A stretch of DNA of 46,838 bases from Chloroflexota bacterium (GTDB lineage: Bacteria; Chloroflexota; Dehalococcoidia; Lucifugimonadales; HRBIN23): contig JACQUK010000043.1 in assembly GCA_016210325.1 (NCBI GenBank), forward strand, positions 1 through 46,838, in the 5' to 3' direction. The first letter of the stretch is position 1. Each line of letters starts with the position of its first letter. Both the position numbers and the translations under genes were made by a program. Below the pieces are notes generated by a model. That model worked only from the letters and a program-made list of their open reading frames with translations, was not told the DNA's origin and ran no database searches. Below, in pieces: positions 9,296 through 28,628 of the stretch.

Positions 9296-11035
9296 CTATC
9301 GCAAGGACCGCATCTCCCCTCTTACCCTTCGAGTCCCCTCCCAGTCCAACTCCAACGTCGCCGGGTCCACCACCACGCCGTACTCGCGGCGGGCGTAGTC
9401 GGCGGTCAGTACGCCGTTGCGCACGTCCCGCAGCACGGCCTCGGGGTCCCGCTCCAGGGGGTCGCCCCAGCCGCCGGCGCCCGCGGTGACGTGGTGGAAC
9501 ACGTCGCCGCGCTTGATGCGGAGCAGCCCCTTGGAGGGCGGCACCGTTGGACTGGTCTCTGGATTCATGACGTTGTGGGATGGCGTGCCTGGCTTGCCGC
9601 CCCACAGGCCGTAGGGCATCACTTTCTGACGGTCGGTGCGGAGCTGCAAGATGGCCTCCTCGGCCAGCAGGCGGTAGCGCCGCTGGAGGGCCAGGCCGCC
9701 GCGGTACTTGCCCGCGCCGCCACTGTCCGGCACGAAGCCGTAGGCCTCGATCATCAGCGGCTGCTCGTGCTCGGCCACCTCCACCGGCACGTTGGAGTAG
9801 TTGCTGTGGGGCGAGGTGGCCGCGTCGTTGCCATCGCGGTCTGGGCCGCCGCCCCAGGAGACGTACAGGAACTCCATGAACACGAAGGGCTTGCGGTCCG
9901 GGTGGTAGCCGGCGATGGTCACGCCGGTGTCCAGACCGGCCTCGCAGGCGGGCAGACGGTCGGGCACCATCTGGGCCAGGGCGCCGAAGACCGCCTCGGT
10001 GATGCGCATCCCCGCCAGGCCACGGGCGGCCACCGGCCCTGGCAGCAGCGGGTTCACGAAGCTGCCCTCTGGTGTGATGACCTCCACCGGCCGGAAGAAT
10101 CCGGCGTTGTTGGGGATGGCAGAGGACAGGATGGAGCGCACGCAGGCGTAGCAGATGGAGCGGGTGTAGGAGCGGGTGGAGTTGATGGCACCGCGCACCT
10201 GCTTACTGGTGCCCGTGAAGTCAACGGTGATGCGGTCGCCCTGCTTGGTGACCTTGGCATGGATGGGGATAGGCCCCGGGTCGAAGCCGTCGTCGTCAAT
10301 GTAGTCGGTGAACTCCCAGGAGCCTTCTGGCAGGGCACGTATCTCGGCGCGGGCCACCTCCTCGGCGTAGTCCAGCAGGTCCTTCAGCAGGCCCCGCAGC
10401 CGCTCCGGCCCGTACTGGCGGGCCAGGGCTACCAGGCCCTGCTCCCCGGTGCGGCAGGCGCTCACCTGGGCTGCCAGGTCGCCCAGCAGCTTGTCGGGCA
10501 CCCGCACGTTCTTCTCCAGGATGCGGAACAGGGTCTCGTTGGGCTGGCCTCGGTCGTACAGCTTGAGGGGCGGGATGCGCAGCCCCTCCTGGTAGATCTC
10601 GGTAGAGGTTGAGGCGTTGCCGCCAGCCACCGAGCCGCCGATGTCGGTGTGGTGAACCACGGCGCACGCGAAGCCCACATGTGTCCCGTCCTCCAGGAAG
10701 ACGGGCTTGAACAGGTAGACATCGGGCAGGTGGGTGCCGCCCTCGTAGGGGTCGTTGAGGATGTAGATGTCGCCGGGGGCGTACTTTCCCGCGTACCGGG
10801 CCTGCAAGGCCTCCACTGCTGTGGGGATGGCGCACATGTGGCGCGGCTGACAGAGGCCCTGGGCCACCACCTCGCCGTCGGCGTCGCACAGGGCAGTGGA
10901 GAAGTCCATGTTCTCCTTGACCAGGGTAGCCCGCGCGGTGCGGACCACCGTCAGCGCCATCTGGTCAGCGACGGACTCGGCGGTATTGCGCAGCAGCTCG
11001 GTGACGATGGGGTCGTACTTGCGCTTAGGTTGCAT
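9296..11035 (-). CDS. hyuB: Hydantoinase B / oxoprolinase beta-type subunit
   Basis: A 579-residue member of the HyuB family, the partner of HyuA in ATP-dependent hydrolysis of hydantoins, 5-oxoproline or related cyclic amides (and homologous to acetone carboxylase subunits). Typical segments are RHMCAIPTAVEALQ, DIYILNDPYEGGTHLPDV, VHHTDIGGSVAGG and the C-terminal AGAGGWGDPLERDPEAV. Length fits the family. The start at 11035 follows GGAGGGAGAGG. Unusually, hyuA is not adjacent: it lies 5.8 kb away, divergently oriented at 16853, with unrelated genes between. A relic of the 3' end of a second hyuB lies 2 kb downstream. Confidence 0.92.
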   Translation of the reverse strand: MQPKRKYDPIVTELLRNTAESVADQMALTVVRTARATLVKENMDFSTALCDADGEVVAQGLCQPRHMCAIPTAVEALQARYAGKYAPGDIYILNDPYEGGTHLPDVYLFKPVFLEDGTHVGFACAVVHHTDIGGSVAGGNASTSTEIYQEGLRIPPLKLYDRGQPNETLFRILEKNVRVPDKLLGDLAAQVSACRTGEQGLVALARQYGPERLRGLLKDLLDYAEEVARAEIRALPEGSWEFTDYIDDDGFDPGPIPIHAKVTKQGDRITVDFTGTSKQVRGAINSTRSYTRSICYACVRSILSSAIPNNAGFFRPVEVITPEGSFVNPLLPGPVAARGLAGMRITEAVFGALAQMVPDRLPACEAGLDTGVTIAGYHPDRKPFVFMEFLYVSWGGGPDRDGNDAATSPHSNYSNVPVEVAEHEQPLMIEAYGFVPDSGGAGKYRGGLALQRRYRLLAEEAILQLRTDRQKVMPYGLWGGKPGTPSHNVMNPETSPTVPPSKGLLRIKRGDVFHHVTAGAGGWGDPLERDPEAVLRDVRNGVLTADYARREYGVVVDPATLELDWEGTRRVRGEMRSLR

Positions 11036-16743: not shown

Positions 16744-16852
16744 CGTCGGTTGTCGTCCCAAGAGGTCTCGCACCTGCTCCTTGAACTCGCTTCGCTTGCA
16801 CCCCCTTTCGGATTCCGCTACGCTATCTTGAGCTTTGCCTCAGGGAGCAGAT

Positions 16853-18961
16853 ATGCGCTACCGCCTGGGCGCCGACGTGGGCGGCACCTTCACCGACCTG
16901 GTGCTGCTGGACGACGATGGCACCGTGGCGGTCCACAAGCTCCGTTCCACGCCGGACGACTTCAGCCGCGCCATCCTGGATGGCCTCCACAGCCTGCTGG
17001 CACGGGAGGGTGTCCCGCCCCAGTCCGTGGCCGAGGTGATCCACGGGGCAACGGTGGCCTCCAACGCCCTGCTGGAGCACAAGGGCGCCCTGACCGGCCT
17101 CATCACCACCAAAGGCTTCCGCGACGTACTGGAGATCGGCCGTCTGCGCATGCCCCGCCTCTATGACATGACCTGGCGCAAGCCTCGCCCCCTGGTGGAA
17201 CGCTTCCTTCGCATGGAGGTGACGGAGCGGGTAGACGCCAGGGGCCAGGTGGTGACACCGCTGGACATGGCGGAGGCCGAAGCGGCGGTCCGCCATCTGC
17301 TGGAGCAGGGCGTGGAGTCGGTGGCAGTGTGCTTCCTGCACAGCTACGCCAACCCGTCCCACGAGGAGGCAGTGGGCGCCATCCTTCGCCGCCTGGCGCC
17401 TAACCTGTTCGTCAGCCTCTCGTGCCAGGTGCTGCCGGAGGTCAAAGAGTTCGAGCGGACCAGCACCACGGTCATCAACGCCTATCTCCAGCCTGTGGTG
17501 AAGCGCTACCTGGCCTCGCTGGAGGCGGGCCTGCGTGAGAAGGACGTGACGGCGCCGCTGCTGATGATGCAGTCCAACGGGGGGGTCATCACCGCCGCCT
17601 CCGCCGGGCAGAAGCCCATCCACATCATCGAGTCTGGCCCTGCGGCCGGCGTCATCGGGGCGATGCGCCTGGGGCACCGGGCCGGCATCAGCCGCCTCAT
17701 CTCCTTCGACATGGGCGGCACCACTGCCAAGGCCGCCACGGTGGAAGAGGGGCGCGTGGCCCGCTACGCCGAGTACGAGGTGGGCGGCGAGCTGAACACC
17801 GGCCAGACGCTGTCCAAGGGCGGCGGTTACCTGGTCCGGGTGCCCGCCATCGAGCTAGCGGAGGTAGGCTCCGGCGGCGGCAGCATCGCATGGGTTGACA
17901 AGGGCGGCGTGCTCCAAGTCGGGCCTCAGAGCGCCGGGGCTAGCCCCGGCCCGGCCTGCTACAACGCCGGAGGCACACAGCCCACAGTGACCGATGCCAA
18001 CGTAGTGCTGGGCTACCTGAACCCGCTGTTCCTGGTGGGCGGCGACCTGCCCCTGGACGCTGACGAGGCCCGACGCGCCGTCACCGACCACATTGCGGGG
18101 CCTCTGGGCCTCAGCACCACCGAGGCCGCCTGGGGCATCCACAGCATCGCCACGGCACGCATGGTGCGGGCGGTGCGGGCCGTCACTACCGAGAAGGGGC
18201 GCAACCCCGCCGACTTCACCCTGGTGGGTTTCGGAGGGTCAGGGCCGGTCCACGCGGCCGGCATCGCGGGGCACCTGGGAGTCCGCCGCGTGGTGGTGCC
18301 ACCCATGCCCGGCCTCTTCTCCTCGGTGGGGCTCCTCTTTGCCGACCTGGAGCACCATTATGTCCAGACCTTCTGGAGCGAGGCGGGCAAGCTGTCGGTG
18401 GAGGAGCTGGGCCATCGCCTGGCAAGGATGGAGGAAGAGGGACGTGGGGCATTGCTGCGAGAGGGATTCCCCCCGGAGCGAGTCGAAATCTCCCGCTTCG
18501 TGGACATGCGCTACGCCTGGCAGAACTTTGAGCTGAGCATACCCATCCCCAACGGCGAGCTTACCGCCCAGACCATGCAAGCGCTGACGGAGGCGTTCCA
18601 CGGAGAGCACGAGAAGACTTTTGGCTACCGCTCCCAGGAGGCTGTGCAGGTGGTGGCCCTGCGGCTGGTAGCCCGGGGCGTCCCGGAGCGACCCAGGGCA
18701 CCGGAGCGCTTGCTGATGCGGGCGCGGAGTGGATCGCGCCTGACCAGAGGCGCGCGGCGGGCCTACTTCGGCGCCGACCACGCCAGCGGCGCCGCGGGGG
18801 AGTGGCGCGACACGCCGGTCCTGCTACGTGCGGACCTTCAGGCCGGCCCGCAGCCCGGCCCGCTGGTCATCGAGGAATACGACGCCACAACGGTGGTGCC
18901 GCCAGGGGCCAGGGCATGGCTGGACGAGTGGGGCAACATCATCATAGAGATGGGGGGCTAG
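16853..18961 (+). CDS. hyuA: Hydantoinase A / N-methylhydantoinase (ATP-hydrolysing) subunit
   Basis: A 702-residue HyuA-family protein of the ASKHA ATPase fold. The start at 16853 is set by CAGGGAG five bases upstream. The N-terminal phosphate-binding loop is GADVGGTFTDLVLLD; the second domain contains VIHGATVASNALLEHKGA, GVESVAVCFLHSY and FERTSTTVINAYLQPVVKR; the Hydantoinase_A core has SFDMGGTTAKAA and GFGGSGPVHAAG. With HyuB it would open cyclic amides at the expense of ATP. Its partner hyuB is 5.8 kb away and divergent rather than directly downstream. A degraded copy of its 3' end lies at 19565-19771, beyond an SRPBCC gene on the other strand. Confidence 0.92.
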   Translation: MRYRLGADVGGTFTDLVLLDDDGTVAVHKLRSTPDDFSRAILDGLHSLLAREGVPPQSVAEVIHGATVASNALLEHKGALTGLITTKGFRDVLEIGRLRMPRLYDMTWRKPRPLVERFLRMEVTERVDARGQVVTPLDMAEAEAAVRHLLEQGVESVAVCFLHSYANPSHEEAVGAILRRLAPNLFVSLSCQVLPEVKEFERTSTTVINAYLQPVVKRYLASLEAGLREKDVTAPLLMMQSNGGVITAASAGQKPIHIIESGPAAGVIGAMRLGHRAGISRLISFDMGGTTAKAATVEEGRVARYAEYEVGGELNTGQTLSKGGGYLVRVPAIELAEVGSGGGSIAWVDKGGVLQVGPQSAGASPGPACYNAGGTQPTVTDANVVLGYLNPLFLVGGDLPLDADEARRAVTDHIAGPLGLSTTEAAWGIHSIATARMVRAVRAVTTEKGRNPADFTLVGFGGSGPVHAAGIAGHLGVRRVVVPPMPGLFSSVGLLFADLEHHYVQTFWSEAGKLSVEELGHRLARMEEEGRGALLREGFPPERVEISRFVDMRYAWQNFELSIPIPNGELTAQTMQALTEAFHGEHEKTFGYRSQEAVQVVALRLVARGVPERPRAPERLLMRARSGSRLTRGARRAYFGADHASGAAGEWRDTPVLLRADLQAGPQPGPLVIEEYDATTVVPPGARAWLDEWGNIIIEMGG

Positions 18962-20179: not shown

Positions 20180-20731
20180 CTAGCCAAGCGGCAGCTCCGG
20201 CTTCACCCCCGGGTCCACCTCTACGCCCAGGGCCGCCATGCCCATGCCCAAGCATGTGTAATAGCCCACCAGCAGCACCATGTCAATGGCCTTGCGCAGA
20301 CCGTAGGCCTTCACCGCCGCCTGGTAGGTCTCGTCGCGGAGGCCGTGCTCGCGCAGCAGCTCGTGGGCCATGTGCACCGGCAGCGCCTCCTGGGGCGACA
20401 GGCCGGCTGGCGCCTTGCCATCGCGGATGGCGTTGATGGCCTCCTCCCGCACGCCCGCCTTGCGCGCCAGGCGCACGTGGGCAGTGAACTCGAACTGGGA
20501 CTGGTTCTCTCGCGACGTGGCCAGGATGGCTAGCTCTTGCGCCACAGGGTCCAGGTTGGCGTCGAAGCGAACGTACGTCCCCAGCTCCGCCACAAGGAGG
20601 GCGGCTTTCGGGCTGTGCAGCAGAAGCTGGTAGGGACGCACCACGCGGCCCCGAGTCCGAGCGATGGCGTCCCAGCTAGAGCGCTGGTCTTCGGGAAGGT
20701 CCTCTCGGCTGAGGTACGGCACACGGGCCAT
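20180..20731 (-). CDS. Carboxymuconolactone decarboxylase (CMD)-family protein, copy 1
   Basis: A 183-residue AhpD-like CMD-fold protein. The start at 20731 follows AAGGAGG. Family features: RENQSQFEFTAHVRLAR with E81 and H85, AGVREEAINAIRDGKAP, and a C-terminal helix pair containing LVGYYTCLGMGMAALGVEV. The AhpD peroxidase CxxC is absent, so this is not a classical alkylhydroperoxidase; the E81/H85 pair may be the active site of a lactone decarboxylase-like or dehydratase-like activity. It is the last of four paralogs behind an Ldh2-type dehydrogenase. Confidence 0.85.
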   Translation of the reverse strand: MARVPYLSREDLPEDQRSSWDAIARTRGRVVRPYQLLLHSPKAALLVAELGTYVRFDANLDPVAQELAILATSRENQSQFEFTAHVRLARKAGVREEAINAIRDGKAPAGLSPQEALPVHMAHELLREHGLRDETYQAAVKAYGLRKAIDMVLLVGYYTCLGMGMAALGVEVDPGVKPELPLG

Positions 20732-20800
20732 AGCGCCTCCTTGTGGCATTCACCAAGGATACCAGGGACCCTTGACCTGGGGGATGCGCCAGTTAGCAAC

Positions 20801-21349
20801 CTAGACGGGCATCTCCGGCTTCACGCCCGGCTCCAGCTCCACCGCGAGGGCATTGATGCCCATGCCCAGGGCGGTGAAATAGCCGACGAGAAGCACCAGG
20901 TCAACGGTCTTGCGGAGGCCATAGGCTTTCACCGCCGCCTGGTAGGTCTCGTCATGCAGGCCGTGCTCGCGCAGCAACTCGTGGGCCACCCGCACCGGCA
21001 GCGCCTCCTCTGGCGCCAGGCCTGCGGGGGCCTTCCCGTCCCGGATGGCAGCAATGGCCTCCTCCCGGACGCCTTCTTGCCGCCCCCGGCGAACGTAGGC
21101 GGTGAACTGGAACTGGTTCCTGTTCTCACGGGCCGTGGCCAGGATAGCCAGGTCGCTGACGACAGGGTCTAGGCCCGCTTCCCTGGTCAGATAGTGGCCC
21201 ACCGCAGCCAAACGTGCAGCGCCCTGCGGGCTATGCAGCAACGCCAGGAACGGGGGCGCCACACGCCCTCTGGAAGCCTCGATGGCACCGTAGACCTTTC
21301 GCTGCTCTTCCGAAAGCTGCTCCTTGCCAGGGTATGGTACCCGGGCCAT
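20801..21349 (-). CDS. Carboxymuconolactone decarboxylase (CMD)-family protein, copy 2
   Basis: A 182-residue paralog of its neighbours (start MARVPYPGKEQLSEEQRKVY at 21349; the codon before is also ATG and AAGGAGGAG precedes both). The core reads RENRNQFQFTAYVRRGR: Gln and Tyr occupy positions 81 and 85 where copies 1 and 3 have Glu and His. If those residues are catalytic, this copy has a different activity or is structural. It is separated from copy 1 by 69 bp and from copy 3 by 39 bp, so it is probably part of one transcript. Confidence 0.85.
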   Translation of the reverse strand: MARVPYPGKEQLSEEQRKVYGAIEASRGRVAPPFLALLHSPQGAARLAAVGHYLTREAGLDPVVSDLAILATARENRNQFQFTAYVRRGRQEGVREEAIAAIRDGKAPAGLAPEEALPVRVAHELLREHGLHDETYQAAVKAYGLRKTVDLVLLVGYFTALGMGINALAVELEPGVKPEMPV

Positions 21350-21388
21350 CATCTCCTCCTTGTATTCCGCCTGTGCGGTCAAGCCGGA

Positions 21389-21937
21389 CTACGCTGGTAG
21401 CTCCGGCTGAGTTCCCGGCTGCAACTCGATCCCCAGGGCAGCTATGCCCATACCCAGGGCCGTGTAGAAGCCGACAAGGAGCACGGTGTCAATGGCCTTG
21501 CGCAGGCCGTAGGCCTGCACTGCCGCCTGGTAGGTCTCGTCGCGAAGGCCGTGCTCCCGCACCAGCTCTTGGGCCATGCGTACTGGCAATGCCTCCTCCG
21601 GCGTCAGGCCGGCTGGCGCCCTCCCATCGCGGATGGCGTTGATGGCCTCCTCCCGGACGCCCGCGTCGCGAGCATGGCGGACGTGGGCGGTGAACTCGTA
21701 CTGGGACCGGTTCTCTCGAGACGTGGCAAGGATAGCCAGCTCTCTGGTCACCGGGTCCAGGCCGGCGTCGAAGCGGACGTACTGCCCCAGTTGCACAATG
21801 GGGACCGTCGCCTTTGGGCTGTGCAGCAGAAGCTGGAAAGGCCGGACCACACGGCCCCGGCGGCCGGCAATGGCGTCCCAATGGCCACGCTCGTCCACGG
21901 GCAGGTCTTCGCGGTTCAGGTAGGGTACACGGGCCAT
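21389..21937 (-). CDS. Carboxymuconolactone decarboxylase (CMD)-family protein, copy 3
   Basis: A 182-residue paralog starting MARVPYLNREDLPVDERGHW after GAAGGAGGCGATA. It shares with copy 1 the Glu-type core (RENRSQYEFTAHVRHAR, E81 and H85) and nearly the same AGVREEAINAIRDGRAP helix, so copies 1 and 3 are the closest pair. It is followed by copy 2 at 39 bp. Between it and copy 4 is a 232-bp gap containing a 24-bp palindrome, which may mark an internal processing or promoter region. Confidence 0.85.
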   Translation of the reverse strand: MARVPYLNREDLPVDERGHWDAIAGRRGRVVRPFQLLLHSPKATVPIVQLGQYVRFDAGLDPVTRELAILATSRENRSQYEFTAHVRHARDAGVREEAINAIRDGRAPAGLTPEEALPVRMAQELVREHGLRDETYQAAVQAYGLRKAIDTVLLVGFYTALGMGIAALGIELQPGTQPELPA

Positions 21938-22088
21938 TATCGCCTCCTTCGATGTGTGCGGAAAAGCCTGGCGCAACGCCGGCTCCGAGTAGCTTGGCAA
22001 CGCTGCTCGCCTCGATTGCGCTCCAGGGCCAGCGGATGAGGCCGACACACGTCGCAACGCCCTAGAAACTGTTTCGACCATCCCCCTT

Positions 22089-22112
22089 CCCCCTTCCTGG
22101 CCAGGAAGGGGG
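22089..22112. repeat. 24-bp perfect palindrome
   Basis: CCCCCTTCCTGG followed by its exact reverse complement, between CMD copies 3 and 4. A similar 24-bp palindrome (half-site CCCCCTCTCCTG) is at 46648-46671. A second small palindrome, TCCCGACAAGTCGGGA, follows at about 22127-22142. No T-run makes it a good terminator. These look like a third intergenic repeat family. Confidence 0.7.
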
Positions 22113-22169
22113 AATTAGTTTCTGTCTGTCCCGACAAGTCGGGAGTGAACTCCCCTTTTCAGTAACCTC

Positions 22170-22718
22170 CTAGACGGGGAGCTCCGGCTTGACCCCCGCT
22201 TCCAACTCTACCTCCAGGGCGTTGATGCCCAGCGCCAGGGCCGAGTAGTAGCCCACCAGCAACACCAGGTTGATGGCGTTGCGCAGGCCGTAGGCCTTCA
22301 CGGCCTCCTGGTAGGTCCTGTCGCTGAGGCGCCGAGTGCGCAGAAGCTCTTGGGCCACACGCACGGGCAGCGCCTCCTTCGGCGTCAACGCTGTCAGTGC
22401 CTTGCGGTCGCGGATGGCGGCCACCACCTCCGGGCGGATTCCCGCCTCGCGTGCCTGCCGAGTATAGGAGGTGAACTGGAACTGGCAGTCGTTCTCCCGC
22501 GCCGTGGACAGGATGGCTAGCACCCGCGTGGGGCGGTCTAGCCCGCCTTCTGGCTGAGCGGCGCCTCCAAACTCCGCCAGACGCGCCGCCGCCTCCGGGC
22601 TGTTCAGCAGTGCCTGGAAGGGGCGGAACATCCGCCCTCGGGACGCCACGATGGCATCCCACCACTGGCGCTCTTCCGCCGGCATGTCCTCCCGGTCCAG
22701 ATAGGGTACCCGGGCCAT
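22170..22718 (-). CDS. Carboxymuconolactone decarboxylase (CMD)-family protein, copy 4
   Basis: A 182-residue paralog starting MARVPYLDREDMPAEERQWW after GAGGAGGAG. It carries the Gln/Tyr-type core (RENDCQFQFTSYTRQAR, Q81 and Y85) like copy 2 and is the most diverged (AGIRPEVVAAIRDRKAL). It begins 10 bp after the Ldh2-family dehydrogenase stop and is almost certainly co-transcribed with it, tying the CMD set to oxidation of a 2-hydroxy acid or related substrate. Confidence 0.85.
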   Translation of the reverse strand: MARVPYLDREDMPAEERQWWDAIVASRGRMFRPFQALLNSPEAAARLAEFGGAAQPEGGLDRPTRVLAILSTARENDCQFQFTSYTRQAREAGIRPEVVAAIRDRKALTALTPKEALPVRVAQELLRTRRLSDRTYQEAVKAYGLRNAINLVLLVGYYSALALGINALEVELEAGVKPELPV

Positions 22719-22728
22719 ATTCTCCTCC

Positions 22729-23808
22729 TCACGCTGTTTCTGGGACCTCAAACGGGAACTCGACCTCCAGCTCCTGGGCCACCTTTCGCAGGTTGCGCAG
22801 GATGTTGGGGTGCAAGGGAATGCCCAGACGGCGACGCTCCTCCATGTTGTTCCACTCCAGCTCCCCCGGCACATAGACCTCCGGAACACCTGGGGCCTTG
22901 GGCAAGGCCTTGACCGACAGGATGAGGCGGTCCACCTCTTCCTTGAACTTGTCCACACTGGTGAAGGTGGCGATGTCCAGGGCCGCTACGATGCTGTTGC
23001 TGCCCGCCCTGCGGTCGAACCTGTCCCGCGGTCCAGAGACCGCAGGGCTGATGAGGGGATTCATGGACAGGAAGCTGGAGAGCACCTCGGTCATCATAGA
23101 CAGACCAGAGCCTTTGTACCCCCCGGCTGGGAGCAGCATGCCACGGAGAGCCGCCGCTGCGTCGGTAGTTGGGTCCCCATCCCTGTCCAGGGCCCACCCC
23201 TGCGGGATGGGCGCACCCTTCTGGGCAGCGTGGCGGATTTTGCCCTGGGCCACCACGCTCAGGGCCATGTCCAGCACCAGGGGGCGCTGGGACTTGGCCG
23301 GTGCGGCGATGGCCACGGGATTGTTGCCCACGGCGCGGGCCAGTGCCCCAAAGGGGGCAATGACCGGGCCGGTGCTGGTGGCCGTGATGCCCACCATGTC
23401 CTGGCGTACGGCCATCATGGGGTAGTAGTAGAGGGCGCCGGTGTGGGCGCTGCCGCGCACGTGCACCCAACCAATACCCATGTGCTGCGCCTTCGCCAGG
23501 GCCAGGCGCATGGCCTGGGTGCAGACCACCTGTCCGAAGGCGTGGTCCGCCTCCAGCACGGCCAAGGCCGGGGTTTCCACCACCGTCTCGATGCGCGGAG
23601 TCGGGTTGCTTCCACCCTTCTTGATGTCCTCCACGTACTGCGGGATGCGCAGCACCCCGTGGGAGTCCACCCCCCGCAAGTTGGCCTCCACCAGCGCGTC
23701 GGCCACGATCTCCGCATCAGGCGGCGGCAGGTTGCACCGCACGAAGACCTGAGCCGTAAACTGCTTCAGCGGCTCCCACGGCACGCGAACATCCTGCTCC
23801 GTAGCCAT
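22729..23808 (-). CDS. Malate/L-lactate (Ldh2) family NAD(P)-dependent oxidoreductase
   Basis: A 359-residue protein of the Ldh2/MDG2 family, unrelated to Rossmann-type malate dehydrogenases. Signature segments: ANLRGVDSHGVLRIPQYVED, GWVHVRGSAHTGALYYYPMM (NAD-binding neighbourhood and catalytic His), VGNNPVAIAAPA, and LLPAGGYKGSGLSMMTEVLS. Members oxidise malate, lactate, ureidoglycolate, delta-1-piperideine-2-carboxylate or 2,3-diketogulonate, so the substrate cannot be fixed. It is the first gene of the minus-strand operon with four CMD genes; the divergent gene is the Fe-S carrier at 23998. Confidence 0.88.
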   Translation of the reverse strand: MATEQDVRVPWEPLKQFTAQVFVRCNLPPPDAEIVADALVEANLRGVDSHGVLRIPQYVEDIKKGGSNPTPRIETVVETPALAVLEADHAFGQVVCTQAMRLALAKAQHMGIGWVHVRGSAHTGALYYYPMMAVRQDMVGITATSTGPVIAPFGALARAVGNNPVAIAAPAKSQRPLVLDMALSVVAQGKIRHAAQKGAPIPQGWALDRDGDPTTDAAAALRGMLLPAGGYKGSGLSMMTEVLSSFLSMNPLISPAVSGPRDRFDRRAGSNSIVAALDIATFTSVDKFKEEVDRLILSVKALPKAPGVPEVYVPGELEWNNMEERRRLGIPLHPNILRNLRKVAQELEVEFPFEVPETA

Positions 23809-23920: not shown

Positions 23921-23949
23921 TTGACACCGAGGGTGGCACCCGTTAGAAT
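23921..23949 (+). promoter_or_regulatory. Sigma-70-type promoter for the Fe-S carrier gene
   Basis: TTGACA (23921-23926), a 17-base spacer and TAGAAT (23944-23949), close to consensus at ideal spacing. The start codon is at 23998, giving a leader of about 40 bases. The spacer contains a small palindrome, GGGTGGCACCC, that could be an operator. Confidence 0.75.
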
Positions 23950-23997: not shown

Positions 23998-24351
23998 GTG
24001 ACAACGAAACCTGCTGAGCCCCTCACCGTGACCATCACGGAGAAGGCCGCCGACAAGGCGAAGCATTTCGCTCAGAAAGAGGGGAAAGCAGAGGCCTTCG
24101 TGCTGCGCGTTGCCGTGAAGGGCGGCGGCTGCTCCGGGCTGCAATACGTGTTGGAGGTCGTTGACGGGCCCGGTCCCAATGATAAGGTCATCGAGCAGCA
24201 CGGCGTCAAGCTGTGCGTGGACAAGCGCTCCTTCGTCTTCCTGGCGGGCACGGTCCTGGACTTCTCTGATGGCCTCAACGGGAAGGGGTTCGTTTTCCAG
24301 AACCCCAACGCCAAGAGCGTCTGCGGGTGTGGCAACTCGTTCTCGGTCTAG
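23998..24351 (+). CDS. erpA: A-type iron-sulfur carrier (IscA/ErpA/HesB family)
   Basis: A 117-residue protein with the three conserved cysteines of A-type carriers: C45 in KGGGCSGLQY and C109/C111 in SVCGCGNSF, at the right spacing. It receives Fe-S clusters from the assembly scaffold and passes them to apo-enzymes in the cytoplasm. The start is GTG at 23998, with GGAGG just upstream. It has its own promoter and terminator, so it is a single-gene unit. The next gene encodes a YgfZ-like protein, also linked to Fe-S enzyme maintenance, a sensible neighbour. ErpA versus IscA cannot be separated by sequence reading alone. Confidence 0.88.
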   Translation: MTTKPAEPLTVTITEKAADKAKHFAQKEGKAEAFVLRVAVKGGGCSGLQYVLEVVDGPGPNDKVIEQHGVKLCVDKRSFVFLAGTVLDFSDGLNGKGFVFQNPNAKSVCGCGNSFSV

Positions 24352-26800: not shown

Positions 26801-27856
26801 CTAGGGCTCGCTCTGCGTCGTCAAAGGCCCCTTCGCTCTGCGACGCGCCAGCACTGCCTGCCGAATCCCAAAGGCAAGCGCGCCGAACAGGATAACACTG
26901 ACGTAGCTGATGGAGCGGTCCAGCACCGCCACCGAGATAGCGCTGTCCCTGGGTAGCGCCAGCACCAGGAGGCCCACAATCCCCGGCTCCACGATGCCCA
27001 AGCCACCAGGGGTGAAGGGGACGGTAGTCAGGATGGCGTTGACCAGCCCCACAAACAACACCAACGGCAAGGGCACCGAGAGCCCCAGGGCCTGGATGAC
27101 CAGGAAGAGCCGTCCCACTTCGAACAGCCATCCCAGGGTCCCCAAGAACCCCACCTGGGGCAACTGCCTCAGGCTGCCCAGGGCGCCTTGGTGGAAGTGC
27201 CCATAGGCCCGCCGCAATGGCCCTGGGAGCAGCCGCGCCAGCCGGTGCCCAAAGCGGGCCATAACGAGCAGTGCCAGCACCCCTGCCACTACCAGCACCA
27301 GCGCCAAGAGCAGAAAGAAGGGCGAGGGGCTGGCCTCGCGGAGTCCCACCATGCCAGCCACAGCCACCAGCAGCAGGAAGAAGACCACCATCACATCCAG
27401 CACCCGCTCGGCCGCTACCGTCCCCAGGGAGGCGGAGAAGCTGGCCTTGGATGACTCGGCGAAGGCATAGGCGCGGTAGGCGTCGCCCATACGGAGCCAG
27501 CCCACTGAGTTGGCAAACCAGCCAATGAGAATAAGAAGGGATGCCTGCCACGCTGACGGGAGGCGCTGGCCCGGCCCCTTCCCAATCCCCGCGCTGCCTG
27601 CCATGATGCGCCACCGCAAGCCACGCGGCGGGAAGCTCAGGTAGTAGCAGAGCAGTGCTGCCAGGTACAACCACGGGTTGCTGCCGCGGACCTGGTCCCA
27701 GGTGGCCCCCAGGTCCACGTTGAACCGCGACACCAGGAAGTAGAGGAAAGCCGCAGCAACGACGAAGGAGATAACGGCCGGGACCGAGAGCAGCCTCCCC
27801 AGCGGCCGGACCCCCTGCTTGGCGCTCGGGCTGCTATTGACCTTGCCGGTGGTCAT
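26801..27856 (-). CDS. Flippase-like membrane protein (UPF0104 / LPG-synthase TM domain family)
   Basis: A 351-residue polytopic membrane protein with about eight hydrophobic segments. Patterns such as YLAALLCYYLSFPPRGLRWR, NSVGWLRMGDAYRAYAF and PFTPGGLGIVEPGIVGLLVL are those of the lysylphosphatidylglycerol-synthase transmembrane family (AglD/YbhN-like), often flippases of lipid-linked molecules. The cytoplasmic LPG-synthase GNAT-like domain is absent, so it is not MprF. It lies 46 bp after rsmG and 74 bp before the HIT gene on the minus strand. Confidence 0.8.
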   Translation of the reverse strand: MTTGKVNSSPSAKQGVRPLGRLLSVPAVISFVVAAAFLYFLVSRFNVDLGATWDQVRGSNPWLYLAALLCYYLSFPPRGLRWRIMAGSAGIGKGPGQRLPSAWQASLLILIGWFANSVGWLRMGDAYRAYAFAESSKASFSASLGTVAAERVLDVMVVFFLLLVAVAGMVGLREASPSPFFLLLALVLVVAGVLALLVMARFGHRLARLLPGPLRRAYGHFHQGALGSLRQLPQVGFLGTLGWLFEVGRLFLVIQALGLSVPLPLVLFVGLVNAILTTVPFTPGGLGIVEPGIVGLLVLALPRDSAISVAVLDRSISYVSVILFGALAFGIRQAVLARRRAKGPLTTQSEP

Positions 27857-27902
27857 CGGTCTCCCATATGAAAAGCTGTCTTGTGCGGCACGCCGCCATC
27901 GC

Positions 27903-28628
27903 CTACCGCAAGGGCCGTTTGGCCGGGATGCCTGGACGGCGCGGGTACTGCTCCGGCGTCGGCGCTATCTTCTGGACCACCACCAGGGCACGCGGGCCCT
28001 CAAGCCCAGGCACAGTGACCGCTTGCACCCGCAGCAATGCTCCGCCTAGCAGGTCCAGCGCCTTCTGGGCGCCCTCAAGCTCGGCCTGGAAATCACCCTG
28101 CTTCGGCAGGACGACCAGGCCCCCTACTTTAGCGAAGGGCAGGGTAAGTTCCAGGGCCACGGGCAGCTTGCCCAGCGCCCTCGCCAACACGGCATCGAAG
28201 CGCTCCCGCAGGTCTGGGCGCCGCGCCGCCTCCTCGGCCCGCCCGGCCACCACCTGCACGCTCTGGAGGCCCAGTGACTCCACCACGTGGCAGAGGAAGC
28301 GGGCCTTCTTGCCCACCGATTCCACCAGGGTCACCGCACAGGCTGGAAAAGCGAGCTTCAAGGGCAGACCAGGGAAGCCCGCACCGCTGCCAATGTCCGC
28401 CAGGCACCCCCCGGCGGTCACCCCAGCGGGCAGGGCTGCCGCCACGCTCAGGGAGTCCAGGAAGTGTACCACCTCGGCGCGCTCTAGGGCCCTGGCCGAG
28501 GTGAGGTTAAACCGTTGGTTCCACTCCGCCAGGAGCTGGGCATAGCGCTCAAGGTGTTCTATCTGCGCCGGGGTCAGCACCACGCCCAAGGCCGCAGCTC
28601 CCCGCAGCAGCCGGTCCACCCATGACAC
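27903..28628 (-). CDS. rsmG: 16S rRNA (guanine527-N7)-methyltransferase
   Basis: A protein of about 241 residues of the RsmG/GidB family. The N-terminal YAQLLAEWNQRFNLTSAR and VVHFLDSLS, the SAM-binding loop LADIGSGAGFPGLPLKLA and TLVESVGKKARFLCHVVE are all characteristic. It methylates N7 of G527 in 16S rRNA; loss gives low-level streptomycin resistance in many bacteria. The start is uncertain: GTG at 28628 or GTG at 28619, the latter better spaced from GAAGGGG; the open frame continues upstream without support. It is first in a minus-strand row of four genes. Confidence 0.9.
   Translation of the reverse strand: MSWVDRLLRGAAALGVVLTPAQIEHLERYAQLLAEWNQRFNLTSARALERAEVVHFLDSLSVAAALPAGVTAGGCLADIGSGAGFPGLPLKLAFPACAVTLVESVGKKARFLCHVVESLGLQSVQVVAGRAEEAARRPDLRERFDAVLARALGKLPVALELTLPFAKVGGLVVLPKQGDFQAELEGAQKALDLLGGALLRVQAVTVPGLEGPRALVVVQKIAPTPEQYPRRPGIPAKRPLR

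Follow-up and report, generated by a model that had tools for sequence, protein, structure and literature searches.

Four tandem CMD-family genes in a Chloroflexota genome: two copies with a canonical active site and two that have lost it

Why would a bacterium keep, in one cluster, two genes with a conventional active site and two close relatives of them in which that site has been replaced? The question is raised by a stretch of 46,838 nucleotides, hereafter called the window, from a Chloroflexota bacterium of the Dehalococcoidia (assembly GCA_016210325.1, contig JACQUK010000043.1). The window, contig C8 of a genome of 2.29 Mb that is 82% complete, carries four intact genes of the carboxymuconolactone decarboxylase (CMD) family (PF02627), all on the minus strand, spanning positions 20180-22718. 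Residues 81 and 85 are E and H in copies c1 and c3, and Q and Y in copies c2 and c4. We tentatively propose that the E/H copies are active enzymes, and that the Q/Y copies are altered subunits probably assembling with them. The four genes are as follows:

20180-20731, minus strand: c1, CMD-family protein of 183 amino acids, canonical site R55/E66/E81/H85
20801-21349, minus strand: c2, CMD-family protein of 182 amino acids, altered site T55/D66/Q81/Y85
21389-21937, minus strand: c3, CMD-family protein of 182 amino acids, canonical site R55/E66/E81/H85
22170-22718, minus strand: c4, CMD-family protein of 182 amino acids, altered site Q55/V66/Q81/Y85

Transcription runs in the order c4, c3, c2, c1, with intergenic gaps of 232 bp (c4-c3), 39 bp (c3-c2) and 69 bp (c2-c1). 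All four proteins exceed the PF02627 cut-off of 23 bits (44.8, 28.9, 52.8 and 42.6 bits for c1 to c4) and align without internal gaps. The highest protein identity is between c1 and c3 (79%), followed by c1-c2 (66%), c2-c3 (64%), c2-c4 (62%), and c1-c4 and c3-c4 (58% each). Homology and tandem position of the four copies are far beyond chance, and the coordinates, lengths and motifs given in the original prediction, made from the sequence alone, are all correct. Regarding the starts, c2 has an alternative in-frame TTG at 21382, and the c3 frame stays open farther upstream, the start at 21937 being backed by the alignment with the other copies. A search of the host genome with c1 (E 0.001) returned c1 to c4 only; the PF02627 profile adds two more distant CMD-family proteins on other contigs (G000:C114:6832-7074 and G000:C37:441-680).

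What, then, has been replaced in c2 and c4? In the related enzyme AhpD, the proton relay is reported to consist of Glu118, Cys130, His132, Cys133 and His137 (PMC3141380). This spacing (0/12/14/15/19) falls exactly on positions 66/78/80/81/85 of the four copies. By spacing, E66 and H85 of c1 and c3 match Glu118 and His137 of AhpD; in c2 (D66/Y85) and c4 (V66/Y85), both the Glu and the His of the relay are gone. Residue 78 is S, N, S and C in c1 to c4, respectively, and residue 80 is F or Y in c1 and c3 and F in both c2 and c4. Because they have no CxxC, c1 and c3 should not be AhpD-type peroxidases.

To place these residues within the family, we tallied them in 208 distinct family domains, drawn from 247 fetched loci together with the window's four genes. 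Four loci repeating the window genes (L001, L116, L214, L220) and 12 other loci matching a Q/Y pattern (see below) are left aside, as are some listed relatives and matches below the search cut-offs, which lie outside the fetched loci. An earlier tally of 161 domains had omitted L001-L030, L111-L117 and 38 weaker matches, which the present one adds. The counts are of related sequences, not of independent events. The 81/85 pair is EH in 128 domains, VH in 29, IH in 26, MH in 6, VN in 5, EQ in 3, QH in 3, PH in 2 and QY in 2, with IQ, AH, VQ and EX seen once each. Q81 with Y85 is thus restricted to c2 and c4, and Y85 occurs in no other row; C78 and C81 together were found in none of the 208 domains. 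E66 and H85 occur together in 193 domains and are jointly missing from 12, two have H85 without E66, and residue 85 is unreadable in one. This close co-loss points to E66 and H85 as the pair at work in members without a CxxC. Of the 208 domains, 198 have R55; the ten others are c2 (T), c4 (Q), L251, six rows that retain both E66 and H85, and one that retains H85 alone.

The replacements are concentrated at these positions. Of the 19 positions with a conservation of at least 88% (defined on the 149 H85-keeping rows of the earlier 161-domain set), c4 departs at three (55, 66 and 85) and c2 at six (21, 55, 66, 85, 89 and 158). The Q/Y copies look derived, because the family's working residues were lost while most other conserved positions were kept. 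The residue split described by the original prediction as two active-site types is real; a more accurate description is a canonical site in c1 and c3 and its loss in the other two copies, c2 having T/D/Q/Y and c4 Q/V/Q/Y at positions 55, 66, 81 and 85.

Loss of the site has not been accompanied by loss of the predicted fold. AlphaFold2 models of c1 (mean predicted local distance difference test score 97.2, predicted template modelling score 0.92) and c4 (96.3 and 0.91) both keep the active-site hairpin, with helices at 62-75 and 79-91/92. Pairwise ratios of non-synonymous to synonymous substitution rates (dN/dS, NG86 method) range from 0.22 to 0.46 among the four copies, and root-to-tip lengths within the clade are alike (about 0.33-0.39 in a 30-row tree), so the Q/Y copies look maintained. 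From these values, c2 and c4 appear to be under purifying selection.

The class to which the copies belong was approached through solved folds, searched with the c1 model only. The closest are the pneumococcal AhpD 6e8l (Z 20.0, root mean square deviation 2.9, 175 residues aligned) and 3lvy (20.0, 3.1, 179), followed by 2oyo and 2prr (Z 18.4, deviation 2.7, 173 and 174 aligned) and the debrominase Bmp8 (17.8, 3.1, 174); Mycobacterium tuberculosis AhpD (1gu9) gives Z 11.5, deviation 2.7 and 133 aligned residues. In sequence, phmmer against the PDB (E 0.01) found no match for c1 and three weak ones for c4. AhpD of M. tuberculosis and the AhpD-like PA0269 and 6E8L share the all-helical fold with a two-helix active-site hairpin, but their CxxC is absent here, E81 or Q81 replacing the second cysteine, and c2 and c4 are also without the Glu and the His. 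The AhpD core profile TIGR00778 scores c1 at 22.0 and c3 at 21.1 bits, below its cut-off of 27.8, and does not list c2 or c4 at E 0.001. The uncharacterised peroxidase-related proteins 2PRR, 2OYO and 3LVY, and Bmp8, are similar in length and fold (Z 17.7-20), with an identity of 12-17%. However, 2PRR has a Cys dyad (PMC4674687), absent in c1 to c4, and the peroxidase-related profile TIGR01926 gives 26.7, 19.8, 27.7 and 19.7 bits for c1 to c4 against a cut-off of 81.8. Carboxymuconolactone decarboxylase itself (PcaC, EC 4.1.1.44) shares the Pfam family above cut-off, but the dioxygenase acting upstream of it in the protocatechuate pathway was not found: the intradiol dioxygenase profile PF00775 has no match in the assembled part of the 82%-complete host genome; control genomes were positive in 4 of 14 cases.

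Which role could be served by the two kinds of copies together? Judging from the retained residues, c1 and c3 would most likely be cofactor-free acid-base enzymes acting on a small carboxylated or enolisable substrate. The conservation pattern suggests that c2 and c4, which keep the fold with all four positions replaced, could hardly run the same chemistry. By analogy, they may be altered subunits, most likely assembling with the E/H copies of the same cluster, in ring-like or dimeric assemblies such as those known for the CMD/AhpD fold. The close packing of c3, c2 and c1 on one strand, only 39 and 69 bp apart, speaks for this proposal. The analogy is with Sestrin2, which joins an active (Sesn-A) and a degenerate (Sesn-C) AhpD-fold domain, overlaying the 2PRR dimer (PMC4674687). 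Because Sestrin2 pairs an active with a degenerate AhpD-fold unit, the idea of a hetero-oligomer, raised in the original prediction, is a reasonable one. Here too there are AhpD-fold units with (c1, c3) and without (c2, c4) the catalytic Glu and His. In contrast to Sestrin2, the units are encoded by separate genes, two per kind, and have no eukaryotic targets; moreover, the c4 model keeps the helical hairpin, whereas Sesn-C is described as having a helix-loop instead.

A stronger version, in which the cluster would be a bacterial two-gene counterpart of Sestrin, the dead Q/Y subunits sitting in obligate mixed rings or dimers and regulating or completing the E/H active site, seems unlikely to us. 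No report of such an obligate arrangement of active and dead subunits in the CMD family was found in the literature searched, and a search that left out most subscription papers found no report of CMD pseudoenzymes or CMD heterodimers. Proteins of the CMD fold are widespread, many of them still uncharacterised, and a compact cluster that holds two canonical copies beside two stripped of the active site offers a direct test of non-catalytic partner subunits in bacteria, comparable to those found within one chain in eukaryotic Sestrins.

Several observations weigh against the proposal that the Q/Y copies assemble with active E/H enzymes. E81Q alone means little, because E81 is replaceable in the family by V, I, M, P or A, and in three rows that have H85 by Q; R55 is likewise missing from six rows keeping both E66 and H85. 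Positions 55 and 66 have changed differently in c2 (T/D) and c4 (Q/V), a pattern that is compatible with separate fates no less than with a common role. With dS near saturation, the dN/dS estimates are rough, and the YN00 method gave no whole-gene estimate for four of the six pairs. Finally, E66 and H85 were lost more than once, since other family members have also lost both: L050, L064, L068, L083, L084 and L105; L091, L093 and L096; and L251. At positions 81/85 these are of the V/N and V/Q types (f41, f10 and f4), the E/Q type (f29) and the I/Q type (L251, G066). The losses form three groups in the trees (the window's Q/Y copies, V/N with V/Q, and E/Q), plus I/Q, which is outside the trees. 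No second CMD domain was seen in the fetched loci of nine of these ten members, some of which are short or end with the contig (the tenth, L251, has too little flank to judge), so that they seem to manage without a tandem partner. A natural pairing does exist in L047 (4359-5501) and L048 (6273-7412), where single open reading frames of about 380 codons fuse two CMD domains, the N-terminal halves grouping together in the tree and the C-terminal halves likewise; both halves are E/H, so this pairing is not of active with altered.

As has been proposed for further paralog expansions in SAR202, the Q/Y copies may instead have taken on new functions, as enzymes or binding proteins acting alone, in homo-oligomers of their own with different substrates, a reading that we consider as likely as ours. 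It is favoured by the members just described, which lack E66 and H85 without a tandem partner in sight, by the divergence of c2 from c4 (positions 55 and 66, and 62% identity only), and by ten other genomes of the order, each with 4 to 8 family matches that are mostly dispersed. Paralog expansions in other enzyme families are also reported for SAR202 genomes (PMC6946804), the group to which we infer the host bacterium to be related; the main text of that pangenome paper has no mention of COG0599, carboxymuconolactone, AhpD or tandem, and in the literature searched CMD and SAR202 occur together in one other paper, with a single passing mention (PMC6123686). On the other hand, the close gene spacing and the common Q81/Y85 suggest a linked role, and neither substrate nor context sets c2 apart from c4.

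That the Q/Y copies are decaying leftovers of duplication is very improbable and was rejected: conserved residues are indeed lost (at 55, 66 and 85 in both copies, with 21, 89 and 158 added in c2), but the frames have no stops, frameshifts or internal gaps, the length is kept, root-to-tip lengths are like those of the E/H copies, dN/dS between c2 and c4 is 0.31 and the c4 model is confident.

The question also arises as to how the cluster was generated. In the trees the four copies form one clade, with a support of 98 (Shimodaira-Hasegawa-like approximate likelihood ratio test) in a quick tree of 87 rows, and of 95/98 and 100/99 in trees of 20 and 30 rows built without columns 81 and 85 (20 rows) or 66, 81 and 85 (30 rows). 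We read them as a lineage-specific tandem family, which presumably arose by local duplication after the split from the nearest sampled relatives. Within the clade, c1 pairs with c3 (87 with 87 rows, 90/87 with 20 rows, 98/89 with 30 rows), and two scenarios are considered for the rest.

Stepwise tandem duplication with partial gene conversion, in which the Q/Y type arose once or twice and gene order has no functional meaning, has in our judgement nearly an even chance. The best rooted tree is (c4,(c2,(c1,c3))), with a support for c1+c2+c3 of 75/67 (20 rows) and 94/78 (30 rows). Forcing c1, c3 and c4 together costs 1.5 and 2.6 log units, respectively (p in the approximately unbiased test, p-AU, 0.195 and 0.14). 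Gene conversion is hinted at by identical runs, the longest of which, compared with permutations and uncorrected for six pairs, give p 0.007 for c2-c3, 0.036 for c1-c2 and 0.047 for c1-c3, the other three pairs giving at least 0.24; at silent sites, p is 0.027 for c1-c3. Once corrected for six pairs, however, these tests carry little weight: three pairs give no signal, c2-c3 gives none at silent sites (p 0.99), and stretches under conservation may look like conversion.

The second scenario, put forward in the original prediction, is that [c4 c3] and [c2 c1] descend from one ancestral E/H and Q/Y pair by duplication of the whole unit. We hold it to be quite possible, somewhat short of even. The unrooted quartet favours c1 with c3 and c2 with c4 (nine protein sites versus two and none; 25, 9 and 7 DNA sites), two of the nine protein sites being positions 81 and 85 themselves. 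A single Q/Y gain would suffice, where otherwise a second gain or a reversal is needed; yet two gains are not far-fetched, because at the codon level a single base substitution turns E into Q, and another turns H into Y. The strict alternation of the types also fits, but was dropped as evidence of origin, since two of the six possible orders of two genes of each type alternate, a 1-in-3 chance. Of the expected pairings, that of c1 with c3 stands; c2 and c4 are not sisters in the best rooted tree, although forcing them together costs only 1.1 (20 rows) or 1.9 (30 rows) log units and is not rejected (p-AU 0.293 and 0.276). A single unit duplication also predicts equal ages for c1-c3 and c2-c4. 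The tree distances (30 rows) are 0.31 and 0.76, and the Kimura distance of c2-c4 exceeds that of c1-c3 by 0.28 (bootstrap 95% interval 0.12-0.46). At face value this difference argues against a single simultaneous duplication of the unit, but the same could result from stronger constraint on the E/H copies or from conversion of c1 and c3 by one another. The Q/Y copies are not clearly farther than the E/H copies from the outgroup L031 (difference 0.10, -0.03 to 0.24). Gene ages are not comparable at silent sites, because these are near saturation: of 43 variable silent third positions, c1-c3 share 18, c1-c4 21 and c2-c4 16. Finally, the gaps of 69, 39 and 232 bp, the last with a repeat against the 69 bp of the c2-c1 gap, misfit clean pairs.

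To see whether the Q/Y type occurs more widely, 250 genomes of the order and 400 of the phylum (overlapping sets) were searched with a degenerate DNA pattern encoding Q[FY]Q[FW][ST][AS]Y, which matched in 6 and 7 genomes, respectively, the host being included in both. None of the 12 other places (5 and 7) is in a locus with a family-profile match at E 10. Q/Y as a wider type is thus rejected within the sampled genomes, for members with these flanking residues; others would escape the pattern.

The c4-c3 gap and the gene preceding c4 contain the following features:

22064-22144 (widest shared stretch), no strand assigned: dispersed repeat, with a palindromic core at about 22087-22114
22729-23808, minus strand: Ldh_2 (malate/L-lactate dehydrogenase family) gene, PF02615, 395 bits

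Part or whole of the repeat recurs at 15 other places in the genome with 84-94% identity (28 match rows, rows on both strands of one palindromic place being merged), and it may be a small mobile or repetitive extragenic palindrome-like element. At five of the 15 places a contig begins no more than 100 bases away, and the repeat may therefore break the assembly. Ending 10 bp upstream of c4 and on its strand, the Ldh_2 gene is a possible operon mate of c4. The 232-bp gap and its repeat could separate c4, together with Ldh_2, from c3-c2-c1 in transcription. Hairpins of the gap are terminator-like on the plus strand only, as scored on that strand (three sites versus 2.0 expected in the 4.3 kb scanned); no promoter-like site for the minus strand was found in the gap, and its folding is no more stable than that of shuffled sequences (z -0.68). 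A near-consensus sigma-70 promoter (23921-23949, plus strand, 11/12, spacer 17) immediately precedes the HesB-type Fe-S gene at 23998.

Relatives were found at E 1e-20 in 67 of 98 related genomes, host included (140 matches). Two genomes of the host's family (G001 and G002) have one match each, P81/H85, with 54% and 52% identity to c1; the G001 copy sits at a contig edge. Among these matches, separate CMD genes less than 1 kb apart occur only in the present cluster and in G052, where a V/H copy is beside an E/H copy (L039). L132 carries an E/H and an I/H gene separated by about 2 kb, and the spacing of the pairs in G065 and G093 is 5-8 kb. A wider contig search found no relative with the four-copy alignment alone; with a broader alignment, 80 of 107 matches were kept, mostly from Chloroflexi or Dehalococcoidia metagenome-assembled genomes, with some from other phyla and haloarchaea.

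Gene neighbourhoods, whose comparison the original prediction had called for, were examined by comparing 21 window proteins with the open frames of the fetched loci (E 1e-20). Some window genes recur, but no common neighbour accounts for function. HyuA, HyuB, the START-like gene, Ldh_2, HesB and YgfZ have no match in these loci; an LPG-synthase-like gene, a CoA-transferase and a few other window proteins do. The LPG-synthase-like gene (26801-27856) is 4 kb from c4 on the same strand, and its relatives are directly beside a same-strand CMD gene in L034, L065, L066 and L071, two of which also carry a counterpart of the window gene 27868-28545; this neighbourhood may be old. In the window, the hydantoinase B gene (9296-11035, minus strand) and the hydantoinase A gene (16835-18961, plus strand) are about 5.8 kb apart on opposite strands and not adjacent. 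In Bacterium HR23, the CMD copy adjoins an amidase gene. A same-strand NAPRTase-like gene is close to CMD genes in 17 of 96 surveyed loci (L033, L036, L037, L040, L043 and others), at a median open-frame distance of 27 bp, and a quinolinate phosphoribosyltransferase gene is near a same-strand CMD gene in seven of the 96 (L042, L045, L053, L203, L204, L207 and L209), at 11 bp; the identification by Pfam was made on one representative per group. Nicotinate mononucleotide is the product of both enzymes, and these neighbours may hint at the substrate of the CMD family.

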